28,901 bases of DNA, from positions 1-28,901 of IMG/VR virus record IMGVR_UViG_3300025122_000104. One strand, 5' to 3'. Within the stretch, counting starts at the first letter, position 1. Every line of letters begins with the position of its first letter. Shown in pieces: positions 2,813 to 28,901 of the stretch. Below the pieces are notes generated by a model, which saw nothing but the letters and a program-made list of their open reading frames with translations, ran no database searches and was not told the origin of the DNA. This DNA is from a virus. A program made the translations under genes and the position numbers.

Positions 2813-3212
2813 TATGATGACTCCCACAAACGTCAAATGCCGTACATTTTTTCGTTAAAATAAAACTATAATCTCGCCCTCGCCCTCGCCCTAAAAATAT
2901 ACTATCAACGCCGTCACATAAGCCCAGGCAATCTCGATAGACAACAACATCGCCACGATTGCATAGTTCGGTACCCACTTCGCCATAATTATTTTTCATT
3001 AATTCTAAAAGTGATGAGTAGCCTTCATTTTTTAAAACTCGTCTATATCCTCGATAGGTCATATACTTATTTTTGAAATGTGGGAAAAATTCCTTCCCAG
3101 AACGCTGATCCCAGTAACCCCCGACAAACGTAAAACAATCCCACACCCCATATTTGAATTCTCGGTTTTTATTTTTTTCAATATATTCATAAAATTGATC
3201 AGAATTAAACAC
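2805..3212 (-). CDS. Tail-tip associated cysteine-hydrolase-like protein (DUF6950-like)
   Basis: 135 aa. The N-terminal half holds GVWDCFTFV with Cys26, and the second half has GDVVVYRD followed by a short C-terminal strand. This is the layout of DUF6950 and of NlpC/P60-like proteins encoded beside the J-like tail tip gene in siphoviruses and gene transfer agents. In that position they are thought to cut peptidoglycan or help tip assembly. A catalytic His is not obvious, so activity is uncertain. The start is a GTG; it overlaps the upstream gene by 8 bases and the J-like gene by 8 bases, so the tip genes are translationally coupled. A run of GRGRGRD is encoded by a hexanucleotide repeat near 2872-2893. 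Confidence 0.65.
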   Translation of the reverse strand: MFNSDQFYEYIEKNKNREFKYGVWDCFTFVGGYWDQRSGKEFFPHFKNKYMTYRGYRRVLKNEGYSSLLELMKNNYGEVGTELCNRGDVVVYRDCLGLCDGVDSIFLGRGRGRDYSFILTKKCTAFDVCGSHHNG

Positions 3213-3792
3213 TCCGCGTACCGCCCCAGACCAATAACTGTTCTTTCAATGAATCCTGATATAGGAAAGCATCGTCGGTAGGATATTCTTTCCGTTGGTC
3301 GGCATGATTATAACGGCGGTTACTCGCCTTATCGAAACGAACCAATTTATCGACGACCGTTACTTTGATGGTCGCAGTAGGACCTATATTAAGTGTCATA
3401 TTATCAATAAAGCCACTGAATATGACGATAGTGTCTAATATATTTCCCCCGTTAGCCATTGTATCCCTCAACCCTATTTCGACGCTGCAATCTGCACCCT
3501 GATAATCCGTTTGAATTGCTGTGCTAATCGTATTCACATTAATGCCCGACAACGTTAAATCTATCATATTAGCTTGAATCTGAGTTGTTTCGGGTATGGC
3601 TGATACGCTACCTAAATTACCTACCCCCACATAATTAACAGAATCACTTAAAAATGGTGGCGTGTGACTAATGATACCCATGTCAGAATGGACATATACA
3701 GGTGCAGTGAAGTTTAAAGCGACAAGGTATATCGGGTATACATCACCACCTGTAATATTAGATATTCCACTTGAATTAATGGAGCGGGTCAA
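3205..3792 (-). CDS. Tail tip accessory protein (conserved phage family)
   Basis: 195 aa. Features of a conserved phage tail family encoded just before the DUF6950-like and J-like proteins: PETTQIQANMIDLTLSGI near residues 64-81, a DYQGADCSVEIG segment, a strand ending in DKLVRFDK, and a C-terminal NRRYNHADQRKEYPTDDAF motif followed by LLVWGG. The family is probably a tip or distal-tail component, by position equivalent to lambda L/M-region products; I cannot name a precise Pfam entry. The start is TTG at 3792, chosen because GGAGG lies 7 bases upstream inside the end of the previous gene, whose stop overlaps it. No membrane segment or enzyme motif is seen. Confidence 0.6.
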   Translation of the reverse strand: MTRSINSSGISNITGGDVYPIYLVALNFTAPVYVHSDMGIISHTPPFLSDSVNYVGVGNLGSVSAIPETTQIQANMIDLTLSGINVNTISTAIQTDYQGADCSVEIGLRDTMANGGNILDTIVIFSGFIDNMTLNIGPTATIKVTVVDKLVRFDKASNRRYNHADQRKEYPTDDAFLYQDSLKEQLLVWGGTRSV

Positions 3793-9185: not shown

Positions 9186-11060
9186 TTATTTTCTATATTC
9201 GATGCCGTATTCGTTAAAATATTTCATTGCGATTTCATCCTTTCGATCACCGAAAATGAGGATGTTATATATGCCCTCTTTTTCAACCATGATTTTTGCT
9301 CTTTTTCCTCCTTCTACCACCTCACCCCAAGCACGCCCAAAATGTTTGAAAGGGTTCGCCCAAACTAAGGAATTTTTGTTCAAATGTTCAAAATAATCAG
9401 GTAAATCAATGTAATTACCGCCTTTTTTGCACTCTAATTGATATTTGTAAATATTTCCTCCCGCACTTGGCGTTTCAACAAAGTAATGCCTCAACCGATG
9501 AGTTTCTTTCTTTATGGGGTCGGGATGAGGGATATCGAATGAACCAGAGCTTTTGGACATCGAACCTACTACACGAACATCCCCAGTAACATCTAGTTTG
9601 TAGCTTGGAGACGGTGTAGTCGTGCCAATCCCCACCGTTCCCTTTAATATCGTTTCAGTAATACTATCATTACCGATTGTAACCGTGTTGCTGCCATTTC
9701 CAATAGCCTCATAACCAATGACTATTTGATTGGTCTGATTATTTGCGTTTGTTCTTGCATTCATGCCAATAAATACTGAGTTAGACCCTGTTTCGTTCAA
9801 CGACGACACACCGGCCATAACTCGCCCCGCCGCATAACCAACTGCCGTGTTATTGTCGCCCGTTGTATTATCGTGCTGGGCGAAGGTACCAATGGCTGTA
9901 TTTCGCTCACCTGTTGTATTATTATACATCGAATCATAACCAACTGCCGTGTTATTGTCGCCCGTTGTATTATCGTACTGGGCGAAGGTACCAATGGCTG
10001 TATTTCGCTCACCTGTTGTATTACTAGACAGGGCTTCCTTCCCAATGGCTGTATGGTGCTTACCTGTTGTATTACTATACAGGGACTCGTAACCAATAGC
10101 TGTATTGTCGTCACCCTCTGTATTTGAGAGCATAGAGTGATAACCGATGCCCACATTTCTATTATCACTTAGGTCATCGTCTTTCCCCGCATCTTCTCCT
10201 AGATACGTTGACCCGCCTAACCCTGTCTGTGAAATCAGACCCGATACAGTCATATCATCGTCAATCTGTAGAGCCCCTGTCATTGTTCCTCCCGTCGTCA
10301 TGAGTGCGCCTGCGGCTGATACGTTTGTCGAATCTGTTACATCTGCAAGGGCTTCGACGCCATCTAATTTGTCTTTTAATGTCGGCGTAAAATTTTTTTG
10401 TGTGAGGCCACCGTCACCTACGGTATAAGTTGTGTCTGTAAATAAGGCATTTTCTGGCACATTTGTTAGCACTTGTGAGTCATCAATTTTACTGCCTAAA
10501 GCTGTTTGAGTTGCGTTTGAGATTGGTTTGTTGATATCCGATGTATTATCCACATTACTTAAACCAACGTCTGATTTGGTTAACACTAAAGCTGTTTTTA
10601 ACGTTGTTTCTATATCTAAATTCTCAACATCCCCCACACCAGAGCTGGTACGCCCCTTAACCGTGCCTGAACTTACGGTTTCCATTTTAGCGTTGGTCAC
10701 TGCGTCATCTGCAATAGTCAATGATGCCGATCCAGTGACATCCCCAGTATGGGTGACGTTGCTGACTTTTGCGTTGTTGGCAGAGATATTAGATTCAGAT
10801 GTCGTCGTAAAATGTTTATTGGTGGTACCCTCTGGGATATCATCTAATGTGTCATAATCTTGGCCAATTAATGACCATATCGTGCCATTAGATCGGTACA
10901 ATCCTGCCTGGTCATCGCCTTCGTCCGTCTCAACCAAGTAAACCTTTCCGTTATTATCTGTGGCCGTAGGTAACGAAGAATAGATAGACACCTCGCCGTC
11001 ATAACGCGTAGCGGCATTCCCACCCCCAGCAGACGACAACAAAGTGGTTAATAAGCTCAT
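9186..11060 (-). CDS. Phage fibre-like structural protein with YadA-type head repeats
   Basis: 624 aa. The N-terminal 60 residues (YSSLPTATDNNGKVYLVETD) resemble a virion-attachment module seen in tail-fibre-like proteins. Residues about 60-280 hold low-complexity fibre repeats (THTGDVTGSASLTIADDAVT, NKPISNATQTALGSKID). Residues about 299-408 contain tandem 17-residue units of the form GxxNTAIGxxxxxxNTT, like trimeric autotransporter head domains that wind into a left-handed beta roll. A Pro-rich linker (GIGTTTPSPSYKLDVTGDV) leads to a C-terminal domain (about 505-624) starting SGSFDIPHPDP, a motif frequent at the end of fibre-like proteins; no S74 autoproteolysis motif is seen. The gene lies inside the head module, so it may decorate the capsid or neck rather than the tail. 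The start overlaps the upstream stop (TAATGA). Confidence 0.75.
   Translation of the reverse strand: MSLLTTLLSSAGGGNAATRYDGEVSIYSSLPTATDNNGKVYLVETDEGDDQAGLYRSNGTIWSLIGQDYDTLDDIPEGTTNKHFTTTSESNISANNAKVSNVTHTGDVTGSASLTIADDAVTNAKMETVSSGTVKGRTSSGVGDVENLDIETTLKTALVLTKSDVGLSNVDNTSDINKPISNATQTALGSKIDDSQVLTNVPENALFTDTTYTVGDGGLTQKNFTPTLKDKLDGVEALADVTDSTNVSAAGALMTTGGTMTGALQIDDDMTVSGLISQTGLGGSTYLGEDAGKDDDLSDNRNVGIGYHSMLSNTEGDDNTAIGYESLYSNTTGKHHTAIGKEALSSNTTGERNTAIGTFAQYDNTTGDNNTAVGYDSMYNNTTGERNTAIGTFAQHDNTTGDNNTAVGYAAGRVMAGVSSLNETGSNSVFIGMNARTNANNQTNQIVIGYEAIGNGSNTVTIGNDSITETILKGTVGIGTTTPSPSYKLDVTGDVRVVGSMSKSSGSFDIPHPDPIKKETHRLRHYFVETPSAGGNIYKYQLECKKGGNYIDLPDYFEHLNKNSLVWANPFKHFGRAWGEVVEGGKRAKIMVEKEGIYNILIFGDRKDEIAMKYFNEYGIEYRK
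9834..10166 (-). repeat. Tandem 51-bp coding repeats (17-residue beta-roll units)
   Basis: Six full units and part of a seventh inside the fibre gene. Two copies of a 102-bp double unit, starting near 9837 and 9939, are almost identical in DNA, indicating recent duplication or gene conversion. Core of each unit: NTA(I/V)G, with NTT at its end. Confidence 0.85.
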
Positions 11061-18746: not shown

Positions 18747-19625
18747 TTATAATTTTTTAATTTCTTCATTTAAAAATTTAGGTACTGCAAACCTCCATTT
18801 GACGACATGATGTATCCGTTTGTTTTTAATTCCCATTCTCGCAATGCCAACACACGACGGGGCATATATCACAGAATAAAACGACTTAACATAAGTGCCT
18901 AAGTCTAAATATATATCAGTCAGCCCCCCTTCGTTAGCCTGTGTCTGTAATTGTTTAAGTCTAATACCTCCATAGGTATAAAATAAGTGCCCTCTCATTC
19001 CCATCATAACGTAAGTATTAACATCCTCATTGATACGGCCCGAAAATTTAAAGGGTCGATCTGTTGCACAAAAAAAGCTATTCATCGCCTTTCGGCTCAT
19101 TTTATTTTTTAAATATAGCTTAGAAACCGTTGAATTACTCCCCCCAATAAAATCACCCCCTTGCGCGAATGCTATCGTTGTAATTTTTGTGCTTTTTAAA
19201 AAATTTAAAAATATTTTAAAAATTACATCCATTTTAATTATTTTAGTTTTTTTAGTTATGTATTGAAATTGAGAATTAAAAGTATAATCGAAGGATGAAT
19301 AGTCGTCGTCCAGCTGTAAAAAATATTTGATCCCCATTTTTTTGGCAATTTCAAAATTAATGTTACGAGCAAATACAACAGAATTACGCTGCCTGAAATT
19401 ATCACCACTATCTGTTATTTCGATAGCTTTCTTTTTAGAAAATACAACAACTTGGCTTTTATATTTTTTTTTATATTCGTTAATTTCTACGTCTTCATCG
19501 TCAACTAAGATATAGATTAAGCCTGTGTACCCGCATCTACGCAATGTATTATACGTTATTACCCTATTAGCCCTGCCATTAGATAATATAAAAACCGCAA
19601 AATCATTCAGCATTATCGTTCTCAT
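18747..19625 (-). CDS. Glycosyltransferase-like protein (TET-associated GT type)
   Basis: 292 aa. FAVFILSNGRANRVITYNTL at the start, IYILVDDEDVEINEYKKKY, then GDNFRQRNSVVFARN and the LQLDDDYSSFDY segment with Asp106-108 as a DxD-like metal/nucleotide-sugar site. This set recalls a phage GT-A-like family known from comparative genomics as TET-associated glycosyltransferase, predicted to sugar-modify DNA bases. Later segments include GRINEDVNTYVMMGMRG. It overlaps the ParB-domain gene by 23 bases and precedes the terminase, so it likely acts on phage DNA before packaging. No TET/JBP dioxygenase is in the window, so the substrate is unknown. The start could also be the ATG at 19613. Confidence 0.6.
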   Translation of the reverse strand: MRTIMLNDFAVFILSNGRANRVITYNTLRRCGYTGLIYILVDDEDVEINEYKKKYKSQVVVFSKKKAIEITDSGDNFRQRNSVVFARNINFEIAKKMGIKYFLQLDDDYSSFDYTFNSQFQYITKKTKIIKMDVIFKIFLNFLKSTKITTIAFAQGGDFIGGSNSTVSKLYLKNKMSRKAMNSFFCATDRPFKFSGRINEDVNTYVMMGMRGHLFYTYGGIRLKQLQTQANEGGLTDIYLDLGTYVKSFYSVIYAPSCVGIARMGIKNKRIHHVVKWRFAVPKFLNEEIKKL

Positions 19626-20358
19626 ACTGAGCTAATATACTTTCGTTCATAGTCACGTATCCTTGTTCAATCGCTTTATTAAAGTCGATTATGACCAAAC
19701 TTAAATCCTCCATCAATGATTGCACCTCGTTATTAGAATGTGCGTAATATTCCGCGATTAATTCATAATCGAACATCAAGTGCCTTTCCGCCGCCAAAAT
19801 TAAAAAATCCCTCTCTTTTTTAGGTATTTTTGATCTATTAATTTTTTCGACTAAAACATCCCTTTTTTCGGTCGCACATAATGTATCTAAGCCAGGCTTA
19901 ACTACCATCGTGGGGTTATACGTAGGTGTTTCTATTTTTTCGGTGTATTTATCTTGGTCATGAGCCGTAAACCCGAATTCAGAATCTTCGAACCCCCATG
20001 CCTTTAAATTGCCCGTATCAAAATTATTAGCGAGCATATCCCAGTCCCACTCGCCTGTATTCTTGTTAGACCTTATCAAATATTCGTCAAATTCCTCTTT
20101 GGTAAATTCACGGTTAGGCACACGTACATCTACGACATAATCTGCCCCTTTTATTTCTTCTAATATTTTTAATCGTTGATGCCCAGCAACGATTGTATTG
20201 TCGGTGTTAATTAGTGCTATTTCAGCATAATTAAATTTGATAATGCTCTTTTTAAGGTCGCTATATTGCTTTTTAGTTAGCTGTCGGGGATTGTAATCGC
20301 ACCCCTTTAATTCTGAAATTTTACGTTTTTCTGTTTTGAATTCTATTTTTTTAGTCAT
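19603..20358 (-). CDS. ParB N-terminal domain protein, phage type
   Basis: 251 aa. Residues 10-90 form a ParB-N/Srx-like domain: KISELKGCDYNPRQLT, ALINTDNTIVAGHQRL with the GHQR box at 59-62, and VDVRVPNREFTKEEFDEYLI. A second domain (about 145-245) has KIPKKERDFLILAAERHLMF and IAEYYAHSNNEVQSLMED followed by LVIIDFNKAIEQGYV, a conserved phage extension often found beside DNA-modification genes. No methylase motif (DPPY) is present, although ParB-N is often fused to methylases. The gene is coupled to the glycosyltransferase-like gene. The ATG is preceded by GAGGGG. It may direct base modification or nick DNA; neither is shown. Confidence 0.75.
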   Translation of the reverse strand: MTKKIEFKTEKRKISELKGCDYNPRQLTKKQYSDLKKSIIKFNYAEIALINTDNTIVAGHQRLKILEEIKGADYVVDVRVPNREFTKEEFDEYLIRSNKNTGEWDWDMLANNFDTGNLKAWGFEDSEFGFTAHDQDKYTEKIETPTYNPTMVVKPGLDTLCATEKRDVLVEKINRSKIPKKERDFLILAAERHLMFDYELIAEYYAHSNNEVQSLMEDLSLVIIDFNKAIEQGYVTMNESILAQYENDNAE

Positions 20359-21705: not shown

Positions 21706-22128
21706 CTAATCATTATAATATCTGGCGTGGCCTGTAGATATCATTATCTCGCTTACACTCAGCCCATTTGCCCGAACCTCGCAATTAAGACGAAATAGAA
21801 CACCCCTATCGCAGTTTTTCAGCTCCAAATAAACGGCCTTGTTAATTAATTTTGACAAATAATTCCTGGCCGCAACCGCCTTTTCCCTGTTTTCCTTTTT
21901 ATGTTTGGTGGGAACGGCAACCCCTGAAAGTTTTATCGCTATATTTTTACAAAAAATATCATTTTCGCAATTTTTTAAATCGACAAAAATAGTTTCACCG
22001 TCACGCACACTATTCACTCTTTGAATTTCTAGGCCTCTGACATCAACAATTAAAATTAAAAAACAAAAAAAACATGACCAAACTAAACACACCCACACTA
22101 AACTTAATATTCGCATTTGCTTATTCAC
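21706..22128 (-). CDS. Membrane-anchored SNase-like protein, probably inactive
   Basis: 140 aa. An N-terminal membrane segment (WVCLVWSCFFCFLILIV, residues 12-28) is followed by a staphylococcal-nuclease-like OB fold: IQRVNSVRDGETIFVDL, IAIKLSGVAVPTK, AVAARNYLSKLINKAVYLEL and RGVLFRLNCEVRANGLSVSE, ending STGHARYYND. In active thermonucleases the second motif is typically IRLxGxDAPE; here Arg is Lys and the catalytic Glu is Thr, so catalysis is unlikely. It could bind nucleic acid at the membrane. The start is GTG 22128 or ATG 22116. Its stop overlaps the ATG of the alternate RusA frame. Confidence 0.65.
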   Translation of the reverse strand: MNKQMRILSLVWVCLVWSCFFCFLILIVDVRGLEIQRVNSVRDGETIFVDLKNCENDIFCKNIAIKLSGVAVPTKHKKENREKAVAARNYLSKLINKAVYLELKNCDRGVLFRLNCEVRANGLSVSEIMISTGHARYYND

Positions 22129-22154
22129 CTTATCTATAATAAAATTTCAATCCC

Positions 22155-22192
22155 CCTATCGTTGTCATCCCCCCCCCTTTGACAATGATAGG
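22155..22192 (-). other. 13-bp hairpin enclosing a G9 loop
   Basis: CCTATCGTTGTCA (22155-22167, plus strand) pairs with TGACAATGATAGG (22180-22192) with one G-T wobble; on the minus strand this becomes one A-C mismatch. The 12-base loop holds nine consecutive C's (G's in the mRNA). It fills the gap between the 143-aa gene and the SNase-like gene and has no T tail, so it is not a typical terminator. Confidence 0.6.
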
Positions 22193-22194
22193 AC

Positions 22195-22626
22195 TTATAT
22201 TTCTGATTGTGTATTTAGTACTGAAACATAGCCACCTTGCGACTGTTTGAAATTTACAATAACTTTTTTTCCTATAATTTCATCGTACCACTTTTCAGGA
22301 ATTATTTTTTTTCCTGCTTCCTCTTCAACAGAATAACCCGTATTTAGTACAAGATACCTCAATAAGCTGGGCATATATTCCGTTCCATCGGAGCCCGTGG
22401 TCACCTCCGTATTGAATTCCTGTACACTGATTTTGTTCAAATGTTCGCCTTTAACAATTTTAAAAGTTATTTTAGCGATTTTATTTCCAAACCGATTAAC
22501 TAAAGGCTCATTATTATATAAAATAACGATACTTTCGATCTTGCATAACTGATTTTTCAGCGGCTCATTAACATATTCATTCATCTCGCTACCCACCTCG
22601 AAAAAACTACTGTGATTTAAATCCAT
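22195..22626 (-). CDS. Phage protein of unknown function (143 aa)
   Basis: Opens MDLNHSSFFEVGSEMNEYVN and contains two strand-rich blocks, CKIESIVILYNNEPLVNRFG with KIAKITFKIVKGEHL, and later WYDEIIGKKVIVNFKQSQGG plus YVSVLNTQ. The strand pattern and the closing IGKKVIVNFKQSQ region suggest an OB-fold or small nucleic-acid-binding protein, and the neighbours are recombination genes, so an ssDNA-binding-like role is possible but not shown. A GGAG site with a nine-A spacer precedes the ATG. It ends just before a hairpin with a G9 loop. Confidence 0.5.
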   Translation of the reverse strand: MDLNHSSFFEVGSEMNEYVNEPLKNQLCKIESIVILYNNEPLVNRFGNKIAKITFKIVKGEHLNKISVQEFNTEVTTGSDGTEYMPSLLRYLVLNTGYSVEEEAGKKIIPEKWYDEIIGKKVIVNFKQSQGGYVSVLNTQSEI

Positions 22627-22659
22627 TTTTTTTTACTCCTTTACTTTTTATTTTTCTCA

Positions 22660-22713
22660 TCATTTCTCCTCCCACAACTCAGGGTTTTGTTTCTTAATGT
22701 CGTAATAAATCAT
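22660..22713 (-). CDS. Micro-ORF duplicating the start of the repeat protein
   Basis: ATG at 22713 overlaps the stop of the octapeptide-repeat gene (ATGA). The 17 codons read MIYYDIKKQNPELWEEK; the upstream gene starts MIYYDLERKKPVEKG, with the same bases around the ATG. It probably is a remnant of a second copy of that gene start. A second tiny frame starts at 22663 behind GGAGGAG. Coding is uncertain. Confidence 0.35.
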   Translation of the reverse strand: MIYYDIKKQNPELWEEK

Positions 22714-23096
22714 TGTTTCTCCGCATTATTATCTTTTATGTTTGCGTTTTCCCTCGCCCATACCCTTGCGTTTCCCCTAGCCCATACCAGGGCGTTCCCA
22801 CTCGCCTCTACTATCGAATTTTCCTTCGCCCAGACTACTGAGCTACCCCTAGCCCACACAAGGGCGTTTCCGCTCGCCCACACTTTAGATTTGGCTAACG
22901 AGGCTACATTTGAATTGTCAAACGCCCGTATTTTTGAGTTGCCTTTAGCAATTATTATTGAATTGCCTTTAGCAATTACTTTCGAATTACCGAAACAATA
23001 AAAGGTGCCTTTTGTAATGATTGAGTAGCCGTCCTCATCTACCTTAAATTTGCCTTTTTCTACTGGTTTTTTTCGTTCCAAATCGTAATAAATCAT
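22710..23096 (-). CDS. Octapeptide-repeat (solenoid-like) protein A
   Basis: 128 aa. A short N-terminal region (MIYYDLERKKPVEKG, then DEDGYSIITKGTFYC) precedes about eleven imperfect eight-residue units of the form x(G/D)N(S/A)xVxA from about residue 35, e.g. SGNALVWA and RGNARVWA. Regular spacing of small and beta-branched residues suggests a beta-solenoid. A similar but more regular array is encoded by the gene at the right end of the window. The start overlaps the previous stop (ATGA), placing it in the replication operon. Function is unknown; such repeat proteins are seen in phages without a known role to my knowledge. Confidence 0.7.
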   Translation of the reverse strand: MIYYDLERKKPVEKGKFKVDEDGYSIITKGTFYCFGNSKVIAKGNSIIIAKGNSKIRAFDNSNVASLAKSKVWASGNALVWARGSSVVWAKENSIVEASGNALVWARGNARVWARENANIKDNNAEKQ

Positions 23097-23290
23097 TGGT
23101 TAACCTCTTTTTCTAATTCTTCGTACTTATCTTTCCAATAATGACCCCAATCCCGTAACTCTTCGTTAGCTTCCCTCAAATCCTCTATTTCTGAATTAAT
23201 ACTTGCTACAATACTATCGATTGATTCGCCCTCTTTAATTATCTGATCTATTTCGGGGCAAGTGTATTCTGGTTCTCTCGGTTCTCTCAC
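23093..23290 (-). CDS. Small acidic coiled-coil protein (65 aa)
   Basis: Starts from GTG at 23290, which overlaps the stop of the upstream gene (GTGA), with AAAGGTGG ahead of it. The sequence MREPREPEYTCPEIDQIIKE opens with a conserved TCPxID motif found in small phage proteins of replication regions, then a charged coiled coil (EIEDLREANEELRDWGHYWK, ending EELEKEVNQ). Probably a structural partner of a replication protein; no function known. Confidence 0.6.
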   Translation of the reverse strand: MREPREPEYTCPEIDQIIKEGESIDSIVASINSEIEDLREANEELRDWGHYWKDKYEELEKEVNQ

Positions 23291-24087
23291 ATCGCCACCT
23301 TTAATTTTGGTTTATTTTTTTCGTATTCCTTAATCCGATCCAATACAATTTGGTTTCTTTTGGCTTCAAACATCGCCTTAAATAATTTTGTTTTTTTATT
23401 TAAATCGGGTTTAAACGATTCTTGTGTGATTGCGTCTAATGCCTCTGTCTCTAATTCAACTAACGCCTCGGGCGATAGAGATTTTATATATTTTTTCGCT
23501 CTAAATCTGTTCATAGCTTCGCATTCCTCCTTATTTTCCAAAACTACGCCTATCTTCTTAACCGTTGATTTTATTTTTTCGCTCGATTCTAAACACAAAC
23601 TGTTACCTATTCTCGACCACTTCCGCTGGTCGCCGATAACATCAACCTCACCTTTAATTTGCCGTGTGACATATTCCGAAAATTCTTTTTTAATCCAGAT
23701 TAAATCGCTCGCGTGACACTTGTTAATTCGCTCCCATCCGAGCGTCTTCTTAACGTCGTAAGCCCAATCGTCAAGTTTAGAATACGGACTAAACGCAAAA
23801 TCTAGGAAATATTGCCATTTTATATCAATTTCTTTATTTATTTTTTTATCCTCTTTTGAAATCAAAATTGACATAATATCTGACGGCGTTGGGGCATCTT
23901 TATTTTTTCCCGTGCTTTCATCAATAGCTGAGAGTATTTCTGTTGTTTCGTATTTCGAATTCGCTAAAAACGTTGCCAAGGTAGCGACTACCTCGATTTT
24001 ATCTTTTCCCTTCTCGTAAAATCTAGTTAAATCGAAAACTATTGATAATGCAGCCGCAATCGATTGACCTCTCGTTTTCTTAATCAT
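23287..24087 (-). CDS. Replication-partner protein, helicase-loader-like position
   Basis: 266 aa. Coupled by ATGA to the replisome organiser gene. The first 90 residues are helical and end APTPSDIMSIL, resembling the pattern in phage helicase loader/inhibitor proteins (G40P-associated gp39 type), where a short helical domain ends in a P-T-xx-DI motif. The rest (IDIKWQYFLDFAFSPYSKLD, YDVKKTLGWERINKCHASDL, IKKEFSEYVTRQI) has no Walker motif, so it is not a DnaC or DnaB. Function is inferred from position; a different DNA-binding role is possible. Confidence 0.45.
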   Translation of the reverse strand: MIKKTRGQSIAAALSIVFDLTRFYEKGKDKIEVVATLATFLANSKYETTEILSAIDESTGKNKDAPTPSDIMSILISKEDKKINKEIDIKWQYFLDFAFSPYSKLDDWAYDVKKTLGWERINKCHASDLIWIKKEFSEYVTRQIKGEVDVIGDQRKWSRIGNSLCLESSEKIKSTVKKIGVVLENKEECEAMNRFRAKKYIKSLSPEALVELETEALDAITQESFKPDLNKKTKLFKAMFEAKRNQIVLDRIKEYEKNKPKLKVAM

Positions 24088-24950
24088 TTCAATACCTTCA
24101 TTTTTTCCATTATTTTCAGTGCTTCGTCATACGTTTTTTGCATCCCTGGTTTTTCGTTTTCAATTAATTTCCCGTGATGAAAAGATAATTTTTCGACCGC
24201 TTTTTCGTCGTAGTTACCCTCGAGAACTTTTAGATAATTTGAGTCGTTGTCAATCACCCAATCGAAATTAATCACCCATTTTATTTTGTTTATCCCTGTG
24301 TAGTAATCAGGATTTAACTTAAATTTTTGGACAACTAATTTAAAATCATTGAAAAAATCAGGGTTCGATTTTAGACGACTTCTAATTTTGTTTTTTCGAG
24401 GGTCATTTAACCTCGTAGCCCGTGGGATACCCTCCAACGCCTCCCTATTCCAATACTCAATAAAATTTTGATGAATTGAAACTATGGGGGGTGCGACTTT
24501 TTCTTTAGATATATCTTTAGATATATCTTTCTTTTTTTCTTCTTCTTTCTTTCTTTCTTTAGTTGTTGCCACTTCGCTTGCCACTTCGCTTGCCACTTCG
24601 CTTGCCACTTGGTTTGCCCTTTTCGTGCCATCTTGTGTGTCTTCTTCTTGATATTTTATGTAATTTCGAATGTAAATCACAGTGTATCGGCTTGTACTTC
24701 TGGTTGCCACTTGGTTTGACCTTTTCAGCTTGTTTATTGCTTCGCGAATTTGTTTTATTGATAATTTAGTTTCGAAACTTAATTTAGAAATGCTTGTTAT
24801 CAAGGAACCTTTTTCGATCAAGGTTCCTTGCCACATCTTTTCTTTGTAATTCGCTTTAATTAGAAGATGAATAAAGAGACGAGATACGTTGATATCTGAA
24901 TACCATTCCGAATCAATGAACGAACGATGCAATTTAACGTACCCTCTCAT
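24084..24950 (-). CDS. Replisome organiser / replication initiator (phage O-like, winged helix)
   Basis: 288 aa. The N-terminal domain has YVKLHRSFIDSEWYSDINVS, FIHLLIKANYKEKMWQGTLI, then GSLITSISKLSFETKLSIKQ with an IREAINKLKR helix and YTVIYIRNY, the winged-helix arrangement of phage replication initiators. A Lys/Glu-rich linker (residues 113-155) contains SEVA repeated three times, encoded by 12-bp DNA repeats. The C-terminal part (HQNFIEYWNREALEGIPRAT to about 270) resembles the DnaD-like end that recruits helicase. It presumably binds the repeats inside its own gene to start replication. The ATG has a G5 run a few bases upstream. Confidence 0.75.
   Translation of the reverse strand: MRGYVKLHRSFIDSEWYSDINVSRLFIHLLIKANYKEKMWQGTLIEKGSLITSISKLSFETKLSIKQIREAINKLKRSNQVATRSTSRYTVIYIRNYIKYQEEDTQDGTKRANQVASEVASEVASEVATTKERKKEEEKKKDISKDISKEKVAPPIVSIHQNFIEYWNREALEGIPRATRLNDPRKNKIRSRLKSNPDFFNDFKLVVQKFKLNPDYYTGINKIKWVINFDWVIDNDSNYLKVLEGNYDEKAVEKLSFHHGKLIENEKPGMQKTYDEALKIMEKMKVLK
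24503..24715. repeat. Candidate replication origin: iterons, purine tract and AT-rich repeats
   Basis: Inside the initiator gene. Units of TTGCCACTTCGC at 24566-24577, 24578-24589 and 24590-24601, a variant TTGCCACTTGGT at 24602-24613, and a further TTGCCACTTGGT at 24704-24715. Next to them is a polypyrimidine tract on the plus strand (24527-24560, purines on the minus strand), and two AT-rich 12-bp repeats, CTTTAGATATAT, at 24503-24526. The palindrome AGATATATCT occurs twice. This matches the lambda layout of initiator iterons next to an easily melted region. Confidence 0.6.
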
Positions 24951-24959
24951 AGCGCCCCC

Positions 24960-25826
24960 TTAATTGCTTTTCAGGCCGTCAAAATCTGAAACGCTACTTG
25001 TGGCACGATTAGGCTGAACCCCTTTTAATCGTGCCTTCATTTCGTTTTTAGTAGATTCTAGCCACCTCTTCGTATGACTATCAAATAAAGAAAATGCACC
25101 CTTTAGCTCATCTAGGGTTTCACATTCCCTTAACATCTCTACTTCTTTTTGTAAAAGCCAGTGAATCAATGCCTTCGCGTGGTCCTTAGACAGTACTTCA
25201 CCTTCACGATTAGTAAAAACCCCAGTTCGATCTTTAAGTGCATCAAAGCAGTGTTTATGAGACAGCCTTAAAACCGTCGTAAACTCATAATCTAGGCCAT
25301 CACGCTGTTCTGTTTTAAGGCCGACTTTTACCGGTGTTTTTACTAATTTTCCCTGTTTATTTTCCTTGTCTACTATTGAAATGTCGCTTTTCGTTCGTGC
25401 AGTAGCCACAACATGACATTTACAACTTAATATTTTTTCTAAAAATGAATTATGTCTAGGCGTTACTTTTTTCCAGTCTGTATACGAATTATAACCACCT
25501 AAATTAGAATGAATATCCAAACATCCGCCCTCACCACTCCATTCATGGGTGATGGAGTCAATTATAATGACATCATAATTTTCTTTTTCGGCGAAAGATA
25601 TAGCCTCAATATATTTTTCAGGTGTATAAGGCGCTTTTAGCTCACAAACATCATAATTAAAAACGGAGCTATATAAAGACCCGCTCCCCTTCTCGGTATC
25701 AATTAACGCTATTTTTTTACCGAATTCCTGTGCAATTAATAAAGAAGACCATGTCTTGCCGCTGCCGCTAGCACCTTCAATTAATAGCCTTAATTTTAAT
25801 TTATCTTTTTTAGCTTTTTGAAACAT
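24960..25826 (-). CDS. Sak4-like AAA/RecA-type ATPase
   Basis: About 288 aa from the ATG at 25826, chosen because AAGGAG lies nine bases upstream; an in-frame ATG at 25844 adds six residues. Walker A GASGSGKT occurs about residues 18-25 and Walker B is YDVIIIDSITH. HVVATARTKSD and KVGLKTEQRDGLDYEFTTVL are further landmarks of phage Sak4/AAA_24 proteins, single-strand DNA annealing and recombination ATPases. It belongs with the downstream replisome organiser and RusA-like gene. It ends with a charged C-terminus and VSDFDGLKSN. Confidence 0.8.
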   Translation of the reverse strand: MFQKAKKDKLKLRLLIEGASGSGKTWSSLLIAQEFGKKIALIDTEKGSGSLYSSVFNYDVCELKAPYTPEKYIEAISFAEKENYDVIIIDSITHEWSGEGGCLDIHSNLGGYNSYTDWKKVTPRHNSFLEKILSCKCHVVATARTKSDISIVDKENKQGKLVKTPVKVGLKTEQRDGLDYEFTTVLRLSHKHCFDALKDRTGVFTNREGEVLSKDHAKALIHWLLQKEVEMLRECETLDELKGAFSLFDSHTKRWLESTKNEMKARLKGVQPNRATSSVSDFDGLKSN

Positions 25827-25827
25827 T

Positions 25828-26103
25828 TTATATAACTCCTTCAAATTTTCTTAAACATAGTTCGAGATTGAAATTTTCGTACAGATCGAAAAAAAATAAA
25901 AATTCTTCGTTCGTCTTGTGGATTTCTCTAAGAACGTCAATTTTTTCGACGGGGTATTTGCTCATGTCAAGCCCTGCTAGAGGTTCCTTCGACTGTAAGA
26001 AGGTGATAATTTTTTCGAGGTGTTTGGTTCCTATATTTTCGATTTCGATAACTTCACCGTCTTCAGTCACCCATGTTCGCGCATAATCTCTATCTGTATT
26101 CAT
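25828..26103 (-). CDS. Small early phage protein (91 aa)
   Basis: The N-terminus (YARTWVTEDGEVIEIENIGT then KHLEKIITFLQS) resembles small phage proteins that begin with a W-x-T-x-DG strand followed by a HL-N/E helix, often found by recombination genes. The C-terminus is an acidic helix (NEEFLFFFDLYENFNLEL). It ends one base before the favoured ATPase start, so the two are coupled. No biochemical role is known to me. Confidence 0.6.
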   Translation of the reverse strand: MNTDRDYARTWVTEDGEVIEIENIGTKHLEKIITFLQSKEPLAGLDMSKYPVEKIDVLREIHKTNEEFLFFFDLYENFNLELCLRKFEGVI

Positions 26104-26111
26104 TTCAGCAC

Positions 26112-26369
26112 CTATACAGGATAATCGCTACACGTCTTCATCGATTCGTGTACGACTCCAAAAGCTACATGCGCTGTGGGATCGTCACTTAATCCCATAG
26201 CGTCCAAACACGAATCACACGTATATTCTTCGGGGTGGCCGAAGCAATCGGAATCGATGCATTTTTTTTGGGAATCAACAGATGACGACAAACTATTTTT
26301 GTACGCTAGAAAATCTAAAGAGTTGCTTACTCGTGGCCATTTCGATATGTGAGGGTTAATTACATTCAT
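26112..26369 (-). CDS. Small cysteine-containing early protein
   Basis: About 85 aa from the ATG at 26369; a G6 site is eight bases upstream, and a TTG at 26387 gives a longer product without a site. The middle holds CIDSDCFGHPEEYTCDSCLD, two C-x4/2-C pairs with a His that could form a zinc knuckle. The N-terminal part is SKWPRVSNSLDFLAY. It follows another Cys-rich small protein. The role is unknown; possibly host takeover or regulation. Confidence 0.55.
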   Translation of the reverse strand: MNVINPHISKWPRVSNSLDFLAYKNSLSSSVDSQKKCIDSDCFGHPEEYTCDSCLDAMGLSDDPTAHVAFGVVHESMKTCSDYPV

Positions 26370-26371
26370 GT

Positions 26372-26596
26372 CTATAACCCCCCGCAATCGTCAATACAAA
26401 CGTCACAAAAATCGTTATTAACGATTAACGATATTCGATGACATCTTGCACACTCATTTTCAAACGCAATTTCTTTTTTCGACGAAAAAGATTCGAGAAA
26501 AGGTGATGCATTAGCGATAAATTCGTCTTCGGGGAATTGTTTATAGCCGTCATATTCAAGGCAAGTAACGGCGCTTTGTTTAATTTTCGAGCACAT
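26372..26596 (-). CDS. Small zinc-ribbon-like early protein
   Basis: About 74 aa from the ATG at 26596 (G5 site 11 bases upstream; GTG at 26608 is the longer alternative without room for one). The C-terminus contains CARCHRISLIVNNDFCDVCI, two C-x2-C pairs 12 residues apart, typical of a zinc ribbon. The remainder is acidic with an aromatic helix. Its stop lies close to the next G6 ribosome binding site. Function unknown. Confidence 0.55.
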   Translation of the reverse strand: MCSKIKQSAVTCLEYDGYKQFPEDEFIANASPFLESFSSKKEIAFENECARCHRISLIVNNDFCDVCIDDCGGL

Positions 26597-26597
26597 T

Positions 26598-26900
26598 TCA
26601 AACGACACCCCCTTCGATAAATGCCGGCGCCAAGTGGTTAATCAGCATATCGTCAATATCAAGACTGCCATCATCGCTCAATCTATGCAATGAGTAATTA
26701 TTCATGAATTCTGCGCATTCTTCGCTTATATAAGCCTTTTCATCGCTCAAGGATGCCCCCCTGTCTTTGATTTTCATTAAATTGTTTATGTCTATTGACA
26801 ACGCCCCCCCCTGTCCATTATCATACTGTTTAAGTTTTTCAGTACTTAATGTTTTTTCGAGATCACGCTTGCCGGCGTGATTTTCTGTTTCTATAGCCAT
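26598..26900 (-). CDS. Small acidic early protein (100 aa)
   Basis: Starts MAIETENHAGKRDLEKTLST after a perfect AGGAGG. It includes GGALSIDINNLMKIKDRGAS and SEECAEFMNNYSLHRLSDDG, and ends LINHLAPAFIEGGVV. It is acidic with no domain recognised. It is the first gene of the compact early block that runs into the ATPase and replication genes and has the best Shine-Dalgarno of that group. Its stop TGA is one base before the next start. Confidence 0.55.
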   Translation of the reverse strand: MAIETENHAGKRDLEKTLSTEKLKQYDNGQGGALSIDINNLMKIKDRGASLSDEKAYISEECAEFMNNYSLHRLSDDGSLDIDDMLINHLAPAFIEGGVV

Positions 26901-26925
26901 TTTTTGGCCTCCTATTTGTTATAAT

Positions 26926-27180
26926 TTAATCGAAAATTAACAACCTCCTATTTATTTTTAGAGAGTAAAAACCCTCCATGATATGCACATATCGCAAGCG
27001 TCTCTGATTGCTTATTATGCATACCATGGAAAGTTTTGCCCTCGTTAACCTTTTTATTTTTTTGATAAAATTCACTGTATTTTCAGTAAATGTGACGATT
27101 AAATGGGATATTTTTACGTCTTCATAAGACGGTAAATATATATTATGTTGATAATTTTGTTTTGTTATTTTTTTCAACAT
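26926..27180 (-). CDS. Small basic early protein (84 aa)
   Basis: Begins MLKKITKQNYQHNIYLPSYE and continues ISHLIVTFTENTVNFIKKIK, then SMVCIISNQRRLRYVHIMEG. It is basic and strand-rich. The start is six bases after the end of the HTH regulator, with the regulator's GAGGAT terminal codons serving as a ribosome binding site, so regulation would be joint. No family recognised; AT-rich codon use like the neighbours. Confidence 0.5.
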   Translation of the reverse strand: MLKKITKQNYQHNIYLPSYEDVKISHLIVTFTENTVNFIKKIKRLTRAKLSMVCIISNQRRLRYVHIMEGFYSLKINRRLLIFD

Positions 27181-27186
27181 ACTATA

Positions 27187-27405
27187 TCAATCCTCTTGGA
27201 CGAACTCAGTTATAGGAACGTCGAAGTATTTGCAGAGGTGTAAAACATTTTCAAAAGATGGGCAGGTGTAACCATGCGCCCAATTTTCGATTGATTGTCT
27301 TGCTACCCGCTTGCCAGTTTTTTCAGAAAATTTTAAAGCAAATTTCCCCATTGTTATTTTTTCTTTACTTTTTAACTCTTTGAGTTTTTTTTTGTTGAAT
27401 TTCAT
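27187..27405 (-). CDS. Cro/CI-like helix-turn-helix regulator (72 aa)
   Basis: A single XRE-type HTH domain: KITMGKFALKFSEKTGKRVA then RQSIENWAHGYTCPSFENVL, followed by LHLCKYFDVPITEFVQED. Its length fits Cro-type proteins without a cleavable C-terminal domain, so it is unlikely to be a RecA-sensitive repressor by itself. The promoter at 27412-27440 ends so close to the ATG that the transcript would be leaderless, as for lambda cI from PRM. The inverted repeat at 27470-27485 is a candidate operator. It is transcribed in the same direction as all other genes, so there is no divergent immunity region here. Confidence 0.8.
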   Translation of the reverse strand: MKFNKKKLKELKSKEKITMGKFALKFSEKTGKRVARQSIENWAHGYTCPSFENVLHLCKYFDVPITEFVQED

Positions 27406-27411
27406 GTTTTC

Positions 27412-27440
27412 ATTATACCTTGTTTTTTAAAATTAAGCAA
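27412..27440 (-). promoter_or_regulatory. Sigma70-type promoter of the HTH regulator (leaderless)
   Basis: On the minus strand TTGCTT (27440-27435), a 17-base spacer, then perfect TATAAT (27417-27412). Only six bases separate the -10 box from the regulator ATG, so transcription would begin at or within a base or two of the start codon. Confidence 0.75.
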
Positions 27441-27469
27441 CCAGTTTTTTTGTTACATATTAAAATTAA

Positions 27470-27485
27470 ATATTATCCATAATAT
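27470..27485. promoter_or_regulatory. Perfect 16-bp inverted repeat, candidate operator
   Basis: ATATTAT CC ATAATAT, seven-base arms around two bases, lying 30 bases upstream of the regulator's -35 box and downstream of the second promoter. The symmetry suits a dimeric HTH protein, but the arms are only A and T, so chance is possible. Confidence 0.4.
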
Positions 27486-27539
27486 CAGTAATTTCACTTT
27501 AATTTGTGTCTGGGATGCCCCCCAAAATTAGATGCTCTA

Positions 27540-27567
27540 ATTATACATCTGATACGAATTAAATCAA
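27540..27567 (-). promoter_or_regulatory. Second sigma70-type promoter upstream of the regulator
   Basis: TTGATT (27567-27562), 16-base spacer, TATAAT (27545-27540) on the minus strand, in the gap after the DUF4116 gene. It would drive the regulator and early genes with a leader of about 125 bases that crosses the inverted repeat. Confidence 0.6.
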
Positions 27568-27570
27568 TAA

Positions 27571-27933
27571 TCAATTTTTCAAATATCTCTTAGCATGGAA
27601 ATTAATGCTGGGGTCATTTTGTAATCTTGGGGATGCATGCTTGAGGACCCAAGGGTATTGCTGTATCGCCACTTTAACGACTTCCTTGTCATTTTTTAAT
27701 TTCCGCCCGACATATTCCAAACAAAACCCTGCTTGCATTACAGCTAATAACGCTAAATCTTTACAATTTTTCAGTCGAGGTGATGCAAACATAATGTTAT
27801 AGGGTTCTTTGCATATGGCCTCACTCATCACCTCGTAATCATCCCTTAGTCGCAGTGAAAAAAAATTAACCATAAAAATATATTTACTGACATTTGTCGG
27901 GTCAGCCGAACTAAAATTATTATTATTTATCAT
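27571..27933 (-). CDS. DUF4116-repeat protein
   Basis: About 120 aa from ATG 27933 (AAGGAAAAGG lies eight bases upstream; a TTG at 27966 is the longer alternative). Two to three units of the DUF4116 pattern are visible: LRDDYEVMSEAICKEPYNIM, KNCKDLALLAVMQAGFCLEY and LKNDKEVVKVAIQQYPWVLK, with FASPRL and HASPRL closing units. DUF4116 is a helical repeat known from giant viruses, eukaryotes and some bacteria and is uncommon in phages to my knowledge. It may mediate protein binding. It lies between the recombinase gene and the regulator gap. Confidence 0.65.
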   Translation of the reverse strand: MINNNNFSSADPTNVSKYIFMVNFFSLRLRDDYEVMSEAICKEPYNIMFASPRLKNCKDLALLAVMQAGFCLEYVGRKLKNDKEVVKVAIQQYPWVLKHASPRLQNDPSINFHAKRYLKN

Positions 27934-27969
27934 AAATAAAGCCTTTTCCTTGTCGTGTACTATCAAAAA

Positions 27970-28521
27970 TTAATATGTATTTAAATAGTTGTATAAAGTA
28001 GGACGAGATATTTTGAAAAGATCGCATATATCAGCCACCGCAACGTCTTTCGATTTATACATTTCTTTCATGTCTTTAATTTTTTCGGGACTCAACTTAA
28101 ATTTGCGACCGCCTCTAACGCCTCTAGCTCTTGCCGCCTCTAACCCAGCTTTCGTCCGCTCGCTAATAAGTTCTCGTTCCATTTCCGCGAATGCTCCATT
28201 AATATGAAAAAATAAGCGCCCAGAAGCTGTCGATGTGTTTATATTTTCTTGAATCGACACAAACTCGACCCCCTTTTCTTTCAATTCCTGGATGAGATCG
28301 ATCAGCCCTCGAAGTGTCCGGCCAAGCCTATCTAGTCGCCAAACGACTAGAATGTCCCCCTCTCGAATGAACTCCAATAATTTTTTTAAAATGGGTCTGT
28401 CTTTGGATGAACCCGAAATTTGTTCTCGATATATGTCCTCGCACCCCTCTTTTTTAAGTTCGATTATTTGAGAATCGATGTTTTGCTCCTTAGTGCTTAT
28501 TCGCGCATATCCGATTTTCAT
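27970..28521 (-). CDS. Small serine recombinase (resolvase/invertase family)
   Basis: 183 aa. The catalytic domain has KIGYARISTKEQN with nucleophile Ser9, DRPILKKLLEFIREGDILVV, then WRLDRLGRTLRGL and the conserved long helix FFHINGAFAEMERELISERT. The C-terminal HTH (VAVADICDLFKISRPTLYNY) binds DNA. Length and layout match Tn3 resolvase or Gin/Hin-type invertases rather than large integrases. The AGGAG ribosome binding site is inside the last codons of the upstream repeat gene, whose stop is one base before this ATG. Possible roles are dimer resolution, inversion of a segment outside the window, or mobilisation; no paired crossover site was found. Confidence 0.9.
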   Translation of the reverse strand: MKIGYARISTKEQNIDSQIIELKKEGCEDIYREQISGSSKDRPILKKLLEFIREGDILVVWRLDRLGRTLRGLIDLIQELKEKGVEFVSIQENINTSTASGRLFFHINGAFAEMERELISERTKAGLEAARARGVRGGRKFKLSPEKIKDMKEMYKSKDVAVADICDLFKISRPTLYNYLNTY

Positions 28522-28522
28522 T

Positions 28523-28901
28523 TTATTTGCTCCTTAAACCGTTTACTTTTGAATTGTCATTCGCCGTTACTTTCGAATTGTCATTCGCCGTTACTTGCGA
28601 ATTGTCCCTCGCCGTTACTTGCGAATTGTCATACACCCATACCCTTGAATTTTCATACGCCCATACTTGCGAATTGTCTTTAGCCTCTACCCATGAATTG
28701 CCCCTCGCCCAGACCCTTGAATTGTCCCTCGCATCTACCAACGAATTGTCCATCGCCCGTACTTTCGAATTGTCATACGCAATTACTTTCGAATTGCCCC
28801 TCGCCTCAACTTTCGACGTGTCATTCGCCCATACTTTCGAATTGTCGCACGCAATTATCCATGAATTGTCTTTAGCCGTTATTAGCGAATTGTCATACGC
28901 C
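28523..28901 (-). CDS. Octapeptide-repeat protein B (5' end beyond window)
   Basis: Open from the right edge to the stop at 28525-28523, 125 residues in the window; the N-terminus lies outside. It is almost entirely an eight-residue repeat A-x-(D/G)-N-S-x-V-x in about 15 copies, for example RDNSRVWA and NDNSKVTA, ending GLRSK. The repeats are more regular than in protein A near 22.9 kb, and the DNS codons are nearly always GACAATTC(G/A). A beta-solenoid is likely. An internal ATG at 28753 is only part of the array and should not be taken as the start. It is translationally coupled to the serine recombinase. Confidence 0.7.
   Translation of the reverse strand, partial: AYDNSLITAKDNSWIIACDNSKVWANDTSKVEARGNSKVIAYDNSKVRAMDNSLVDARDNSRVWARGNSWVEAKDNSQVWAYENSRVWVYDNSQVTARDNSQVTANDNSKVTANDNSKVNGLRSK
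28545..28901. repeat. 24-bp coding tandem repeats
   Basis: About 15 contiguous, imperfect copies of a 24-bp unit encoding A-x-D-N-S-x-V-x, running off the right edge. The nine bases for DNS are almost invariant while flanking bases vary. No spacers, so not a CRISPR. Confidence 0.85.

Follow-up and report, generated by a model that had tools for sequence, protein, structure and literature searches.

The terminase encoded in the window, a virus record of 28,901 bases, has its closest match in the Nonlabens phages P12024L/S, at 48% identity along part of its length, which makes a flavobacterial host plausible. The gene on which our analysis centers (initiator gene, Table 1) encodes a protein that matches the profiles PHROG 2514, DnaD-like helicase loader (2.6e-25), and PHROG 345, 'replication initiation O-like' (1.6e-21, residues 2-250), with the winged helix included in the match; by these matches the product is a phage initiator of the O-like/DnaD-like kind. 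Pfam gave no match at 1e-3, and a search of solved structures by sequence returned no informative match. AlphaFold predicts a winged helix as a block with pLDDT 92-98 over residues 21-100, comprising helices at residues 20-32, 54-61 and 65-77 and wing strands at 81-85 and 90-94. Family membership suggests that the C-terminal part would recruit the helicase or its loader.

The initiator gene and its AAA/Sak4-like neighbor form a replication-recombination module. Directly downstream of the initiator lies a 266-aa gene (23287-24087), in the position that a DNA helicase gene occupies in several Vibrio relatives; this 266-aa gene has no family or phage match, its candidacy as a helicase loader found no support, and no helicase or loader partner was found in the window. 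Elsewhere in the record, two genes (28523-28901, and 22710-23096 on the minus strand) share a 24-bp repeat encoding 8-aa units of the type 'VxAxDNSx' (AYDNSKVRAMDNSLVDARDNS...). Both match PHROG 15773, of unknown function; the first is cut by the record end and adjoins a DNA-invertase-type serine recombinase gene (27970-28521), and for the second, Mycobacterium and Gordonia phages gave distant matches. No inverted repeats of at least 22 bp occur within 22000-28901. Repeats of 51 and 102 bp at 9833-10115 lie in a 624-aa ORF (9186-11060) that probably encodes a repetitive virion or tail protein.

Table 1. Positions of the initiator gene, its neighbor and the proposed origin elements in the window
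Feature	Position	Strand	Sequence or description	Basis or occurrence in relatives
AAA/Sak4-like recombination gene	24960..25844	(-)	Upstream of initiator, same transcription direction	Pfam AAA_24 1.7e-19; PHROG 124 Sak4-like 1.4e-11
Initiator gene	24084..24950	(-)	288 aa; winged helix at the N-terminus (about residues 15-95), then a repeat-coding linker and a C-terminal domain	
Codon 54 (Ile)	24789..24791	(-)	First residue of predicted helix 54-61; non-Arg predicts A at iteron position 4	Covariation and structure
Codon 66 (Lys)	24753..24755	(-)	Second residue of predicted recognition helix 65-77; predicts iteron GG	Covariation and structure
Wing iteron 1	24711..24721	(-)	GGTCAAACCAA; family position -74	At least 7/9 match to own iteron in 49/105 genes
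Wing iteron 2 (fifth copy of the initial annotation)	24699..24709	(-)	TGGCAACCAGA; family position -62	57/105 genes
Wing iteron 3 (weak in window)	24687..24697	(-)	GTACAAGCCGA; family position -50	44/105 genes
Linker iteron 1	24609..24619	(-)	GGGCAAACCAA	Array scan
Linker iteron 2	24597..24607	(-)	TGGCAAGCGAA	Array scan
Linker iteron 3	24585..24595	(-)	TGGCAAGCGAA	Array scan
Linker iteron 4	24573..24583	(-)	TGGCAAGCGAA	Array scan
Linker iteron 5	24561..24571	(-)	Half match TGGCAACAACT; adjoins melting tract; GGCAACAA ending also in relatives	Array scan
DNA-unwinding element (probable)	24502..24560	(-)	Purine tract and ATATCTAAAG repeats; downstream of iterons on the coding strand	

Tandem repeats lie within the coding sequence of this initiator. 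The four adjoining 12-bp iterons that the initial annotation reported at 24566-24613 are borne out by the sequence, which there consists of three copies of TTGCCACTTCGC and one of TTGCCACTTGGT; on the coding (minus) strand the array reads AACCAAGTGGCAAGCGAAGTGGCAAGCGAAGTGGCAAGCGAAGTGGCAACA and encodes NQVASEVASEVASEVAT, the SEVA repeat attributed to the linker, and a further core, GGGCAAACC, extends the array at 24609-24619. Matches to CAAGTGGCAA with at most one mismatch number five in the 28.9-kb window, all at this locus (1.6 expected), and the best five-site cluster scores 44/50 here, compared with at most 28 elsewhere in the window and at most 29 in shuffled sequence. With the peptide held fixed and codons drawn at the frequencies of the window's other genes, 200,000 synonymous resamplings never produced a codon self-identity as high as that of the array. 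Identical codons can also arise by recent tandem duplication, so that comparison with relatives is the stronger test.

Searching phage records at the DNA level yielded no relatives of the locus, and searching viral contigs with the single initiator protein also yielded none; a profile of the winged helix recovered relatives in viral contigs, and a scan of genome contigs gave three. We compared about 180 related phages, among the matches listed, and the scans reported more than 500 further candidate relatives. Tandem repeats just after the winged helix occur in Vibrio phages, Cellulophaga phage phi18:3, the P22-like phage L and viral contigs, and in most relatives they are spaced 11 bp apart. 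Over 55 nonredundant genes, self-identity of the linker stretch at a lag of 11 was 0.55 and fell to 0.43 when codons were shuffled synonymously (z 20.6); the parts of these genes that encode the winged helix and the C-terminal domain show no lag-11 peak. Arrays exceeded the 95% level of synonymous shuffles in 108 of 153 nonredundant genes, most commonly with spacings of 12-11-11-11 (53 arrays), 11-11-11-11 (27) or 12-12-11-11 (11); the count of spacings is no proof by itself, because the peptide partly fixes the DNA and synonymous shuffles favor the same spacings, and array scores averaged 74.7 for real genes against 58.9 for shuffled ones. All three reading frames are used by 102 of the 108 arrays. 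A spacing of about 11 bp makes the iterons run through all three frames, so selection acts on the DNA.

The window departs from this pattern in having neither canonical spacing (12-11-11-11 or 11-11-11-11): its linker iterons are spaced 12-12-12-12 and thus stay in frame, producing the VASE peptide. Only 3 of the 108 arrays are of this all-12, in-frame form, namely those of the window and of two contigs, L235 and L120. In L235 (1720-2000), ACTAACACACCA-type iterons occupy the wing, the linker and again a downstream stretch (around 1940-1990), an unusually extended putative origin. A search for 12-bp GTGGCAA arrays found 36 contigs, among which L120 is the sole one encoding a relative of the initiator, with a distant domain (27% identical); there, at 3200-3290, an independent all-12-bp GCCACGACCCTT-type array is followed by a purine tract.

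These comparisons bear on the reading in which the DNA repeat is a by-product of the linker peptide (SEVA) or of recent slippage and has no DNA function. The in-frame 12-bp period and the identity of the three middle units, as after a recent duplication, are what such an origin of the repeat would leave, but in relatives the DNA repeat is kept across changing frames and peptides, the synonymous tests detect constraint on the codons, and iteron bases track helix residues, as described below; we regard a by-product as extremely improbable, and its peptide-repeat-only version is ruled out by the synonymous-codon tests together with the frame-shifting 11-bp arrays of relatives. Conserved peptides written in scattered codons would have spoken against the initial annotation, and we observed the opposite, with the relatives' DNA repeats kept and their peptides changed; the peptides change because repeats mostly 11 bp apart shift the frame.

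The initial annotation had listed a fifth copy at 24704. Its sequence is present, as a second TTGCCACTTGGT at 24704-24715 that shares 22/24 bases with the array start (P = 8e-5 under synonymous resampling with the peptide fixed), yet it is not a lone copy: it is the middle member of a family-wide cluster in which three sites follow one another at 12-bp intervals within the wing codons (family positions in Table 1 are counted from the end of the conserved Tyr-Gln). Across 105 genes, background positions match the gene's own iteron at 7/9 or more bases in 0.3% of cases, and the wing cluster matches it better than synonymous shuffles do (z 17) and better than it matches the iterons of other genes (z 16.6), whereas parts of the winged-helix domain away from the wing stretch show no excess. 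The wing sites also follow the residue rules set out below more often than synonymous shuffles do (for example, 0.70 against 0.34 at -62), and the flanking positions -86 and -38 do not follow them in the same comparison. Lys66 genes mostly carry GA instead of GG at -74 and -50, and the wing sites are to that extent imperfect. Judged by these comparisons, the putative origin is larger than first described and has three wing sites in addition to five linker sites.

In the common iteron register, Y-R1-R2-C-[A/C]4-A-R-C-R-A, covariation over the 108 genes showed that residue 66 predicts bases 1-2 (Gln, AA; Arg, GA; Lys, GG) and residue 54 predicts base 4 (Arg, C; otherwise A). The window, with Lys66, Ile54 and the iteron TGGCAAGCGA, obeys both rules. 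In a held-out test on 69 nonredundant genes, which took in 45 genes of the same searches with weaker arrays and for which bases 0, 1, 2 and 4 were masked in the site model, residue 66 was right in 53 of 58 cases (Gln 24/26, Arg 18/20, Lys 11/12) and residue 54 in 63 of 69; misread arrays probably lie behind some of the misses. Overall, the rules hold in 143/156 cases for residue 66 and 161/177 for residue 54. Permuting residue 66 gave 35%, and no other residue was an equally good predictor.

Common ancestry is the chief worry for such covariation. The best tree, built on 80 protein residues, requires 69 or more changes at residue 66; it is poorly resolved and for that reason leaves few independent pairs on supported branches. 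In tree-based independent pairs nearly all differences run in the predicted direction, with supported branches too few for significance. Among 46 close, non-overlapping pairs that differ at residue 66, both iterons were as predicted in 38 and reversed in none, and one such pair is 91% identical elsewhere. The covariation of iteron bases with residues of the predicted winged helix ties the protein to the sites and lends strong, if indirect, support to recognition of the iterons by the protein encoded around them.

An easily melted, AT-rich tract adjoins the iterons in the window. Both elements that the initial annotation had placed here within the initiator coding sequence, a purine tract and AT-rich repeats, were found at 24502-24560, as TCTTTAGATATA repeats (24502-24530) and a tract that is pyrimidine on the plus strand and purine on the minus strand (24526-24560). 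Its best 40- and 60-bp windows are among the least stable 0.4-0.5% of the whole stretch, in which several other segments are even less stable. In the 108 genes, the positions +10 to +49 after the array have an AT fraction of 0.76-0.80 and a coding-strand purine fraction of 0.72-0.77, compared with an AT fraction of 0.53-0.59 within the iterons. The GC-skew shift proposed as a further check did not appear, the sign of the skew being unchanged near the initiator locus.

In an alternative reading, the initiator binds the repeats chiefly to regulate itself, by repressing its own gene or by acting as a roadblock to its transcription, and replication starts elsewhere. The covariation links protein and sites and not origin function, the sites sit in a transcribed gene, and the same data would fit sites that are autoregulatory only. 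We nevertheless hold this to be unlikely, given that in relatives the purine/AT-rich tract keeps its place immediately after the array, that the protein is homologous to initiators, that the annotated origin of phage L, a P22-like relative, falls in the corresponding segment of the gene, and that the cluster scan found no second five-site cluster within the 28,901-nt record, though this record may be a fragment.

Our preferred reading is that 24502-24721 is a phage replication origin embedded in its own initiator gene; we hold this with high confidence, and the locus very probably belongs, by its sequence features, to the class of initiator-embedded iteron origins of the lambda/P22 kind. Three observations support this reading: the layout of the sites, selection on the sites as DNA, and the covariation of bases with residues. 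In the mechanism we propose, the N-terminal winged helix would recognize 11-bp sites that read Y-R-R-C-[A/C]-A-R-C-R-A; the wing codons hold three of them at 12-bp intervals, and the linker codons hold five, at 12-bp intervals in the window and usually at 12-11-11-11 in the family. Protomers may lie side by side, each covering about one helical turn, and bind cooperatively so as to wrap or strain the DNA; the strain would melt the adjoining purine/A-rich tract, and the C-terminal domain, as its initiator families suggest, would then bring in the replicative helicase. With all-12 spacing, successive protomers would be rotated by roughly 50 degrees as opposed to 17, at an assumed 10.5 bp per turn. 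The array could instead be a centromere-like site for partition to which the winged-helix protein binds, and the winged-helix centromere proteins TubR and AspA appear among the fold matches of the initiator, with a ParB-like gene at 19603-20358; but the fold search returned generic winged helices alone, all with E of at least 0.015, and both the initiator families in which the protein falls and its O-like C-terminal part speak against partition, a role to which we give very little probability.

More broadly, we think it likely that a large set of mostly uncultured phages carries a bipartite origin in its initiator codons, with three wing sites, about five linker sites and a melting tract, governed by the rule of residues 66 and 54, and that the window is a rare in-frame, all-12 version of it. 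If so, the specificity of an origin would be predictable from protein sequence, and the protein sequence of wing and linker would be partly dictated by the DNA sites that it carries. The family would then offer a testable rule for which initiator residues choose which origin bases, together with the number and spacing of sites that make an origin, and with it the origins of uncultured phages and their compatibility could be predicted. It would also be a clear case of one DNA stretch selected both as protein and as binding sites, in which the 11-bp period forces the use of three frames. A search of mainly open-access papers, among which the older origin literature is little represented, turned up no description of the 3+5 layout, of 12-11-11-11 spacing or of the two-residue rule, so the novelty of these features is provisional.

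Lambda and Stx phages are established cases of an origin within the initiator gene (PMC7466680); their iterons are about 20 bp long and number four in lambda and six in Stx phages (PMC8022706, PMC7466680). The initial annotation had called the window's origin lambda-like, which applies to the layout, mid-gene iterons beside an AT-rich tract being common to the window, lambda O/ori-lambda and the Stx origins, and does not apply to the iteron type: sets of at least four iterons, each about 20 bp long, are absent from the window, which has a 12-bp period, a second cluster of three sites and a purine-rich melting tract. Closer in this respect is phage L, in whose gene 18 six imprecise 11-bp repeats, TGTCCAACGGA, have been proposed as the likely origin (PMC8022706), and whose record (L012) annotates ori within that gene. 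Gene 18 encodes a homologous initiator (24% identity over residues 2-250) and has short tandem iterons just after the winged helix, followed by an A-rich tract, and it obeys the residue-54 rule, having Arg54 and a C at position 4 of its iterons; unlike the window, its 11-bp repeats differ in sequence, its array is interrupted, and no wing cluster is evident by eye. The initiators of Cellulophaga phage phi18:3 (gp006) and of Vibrio phages are 42-56% identical to the window's winged helix, and phi18:3 and Vibrio phage 1.135 carry GGCAA-type iterons at the same place, but with 11-bp spacing throughout in phi18:3, 12-11-11-11 spacing in Vibrio phage 1.135, and different peptides.
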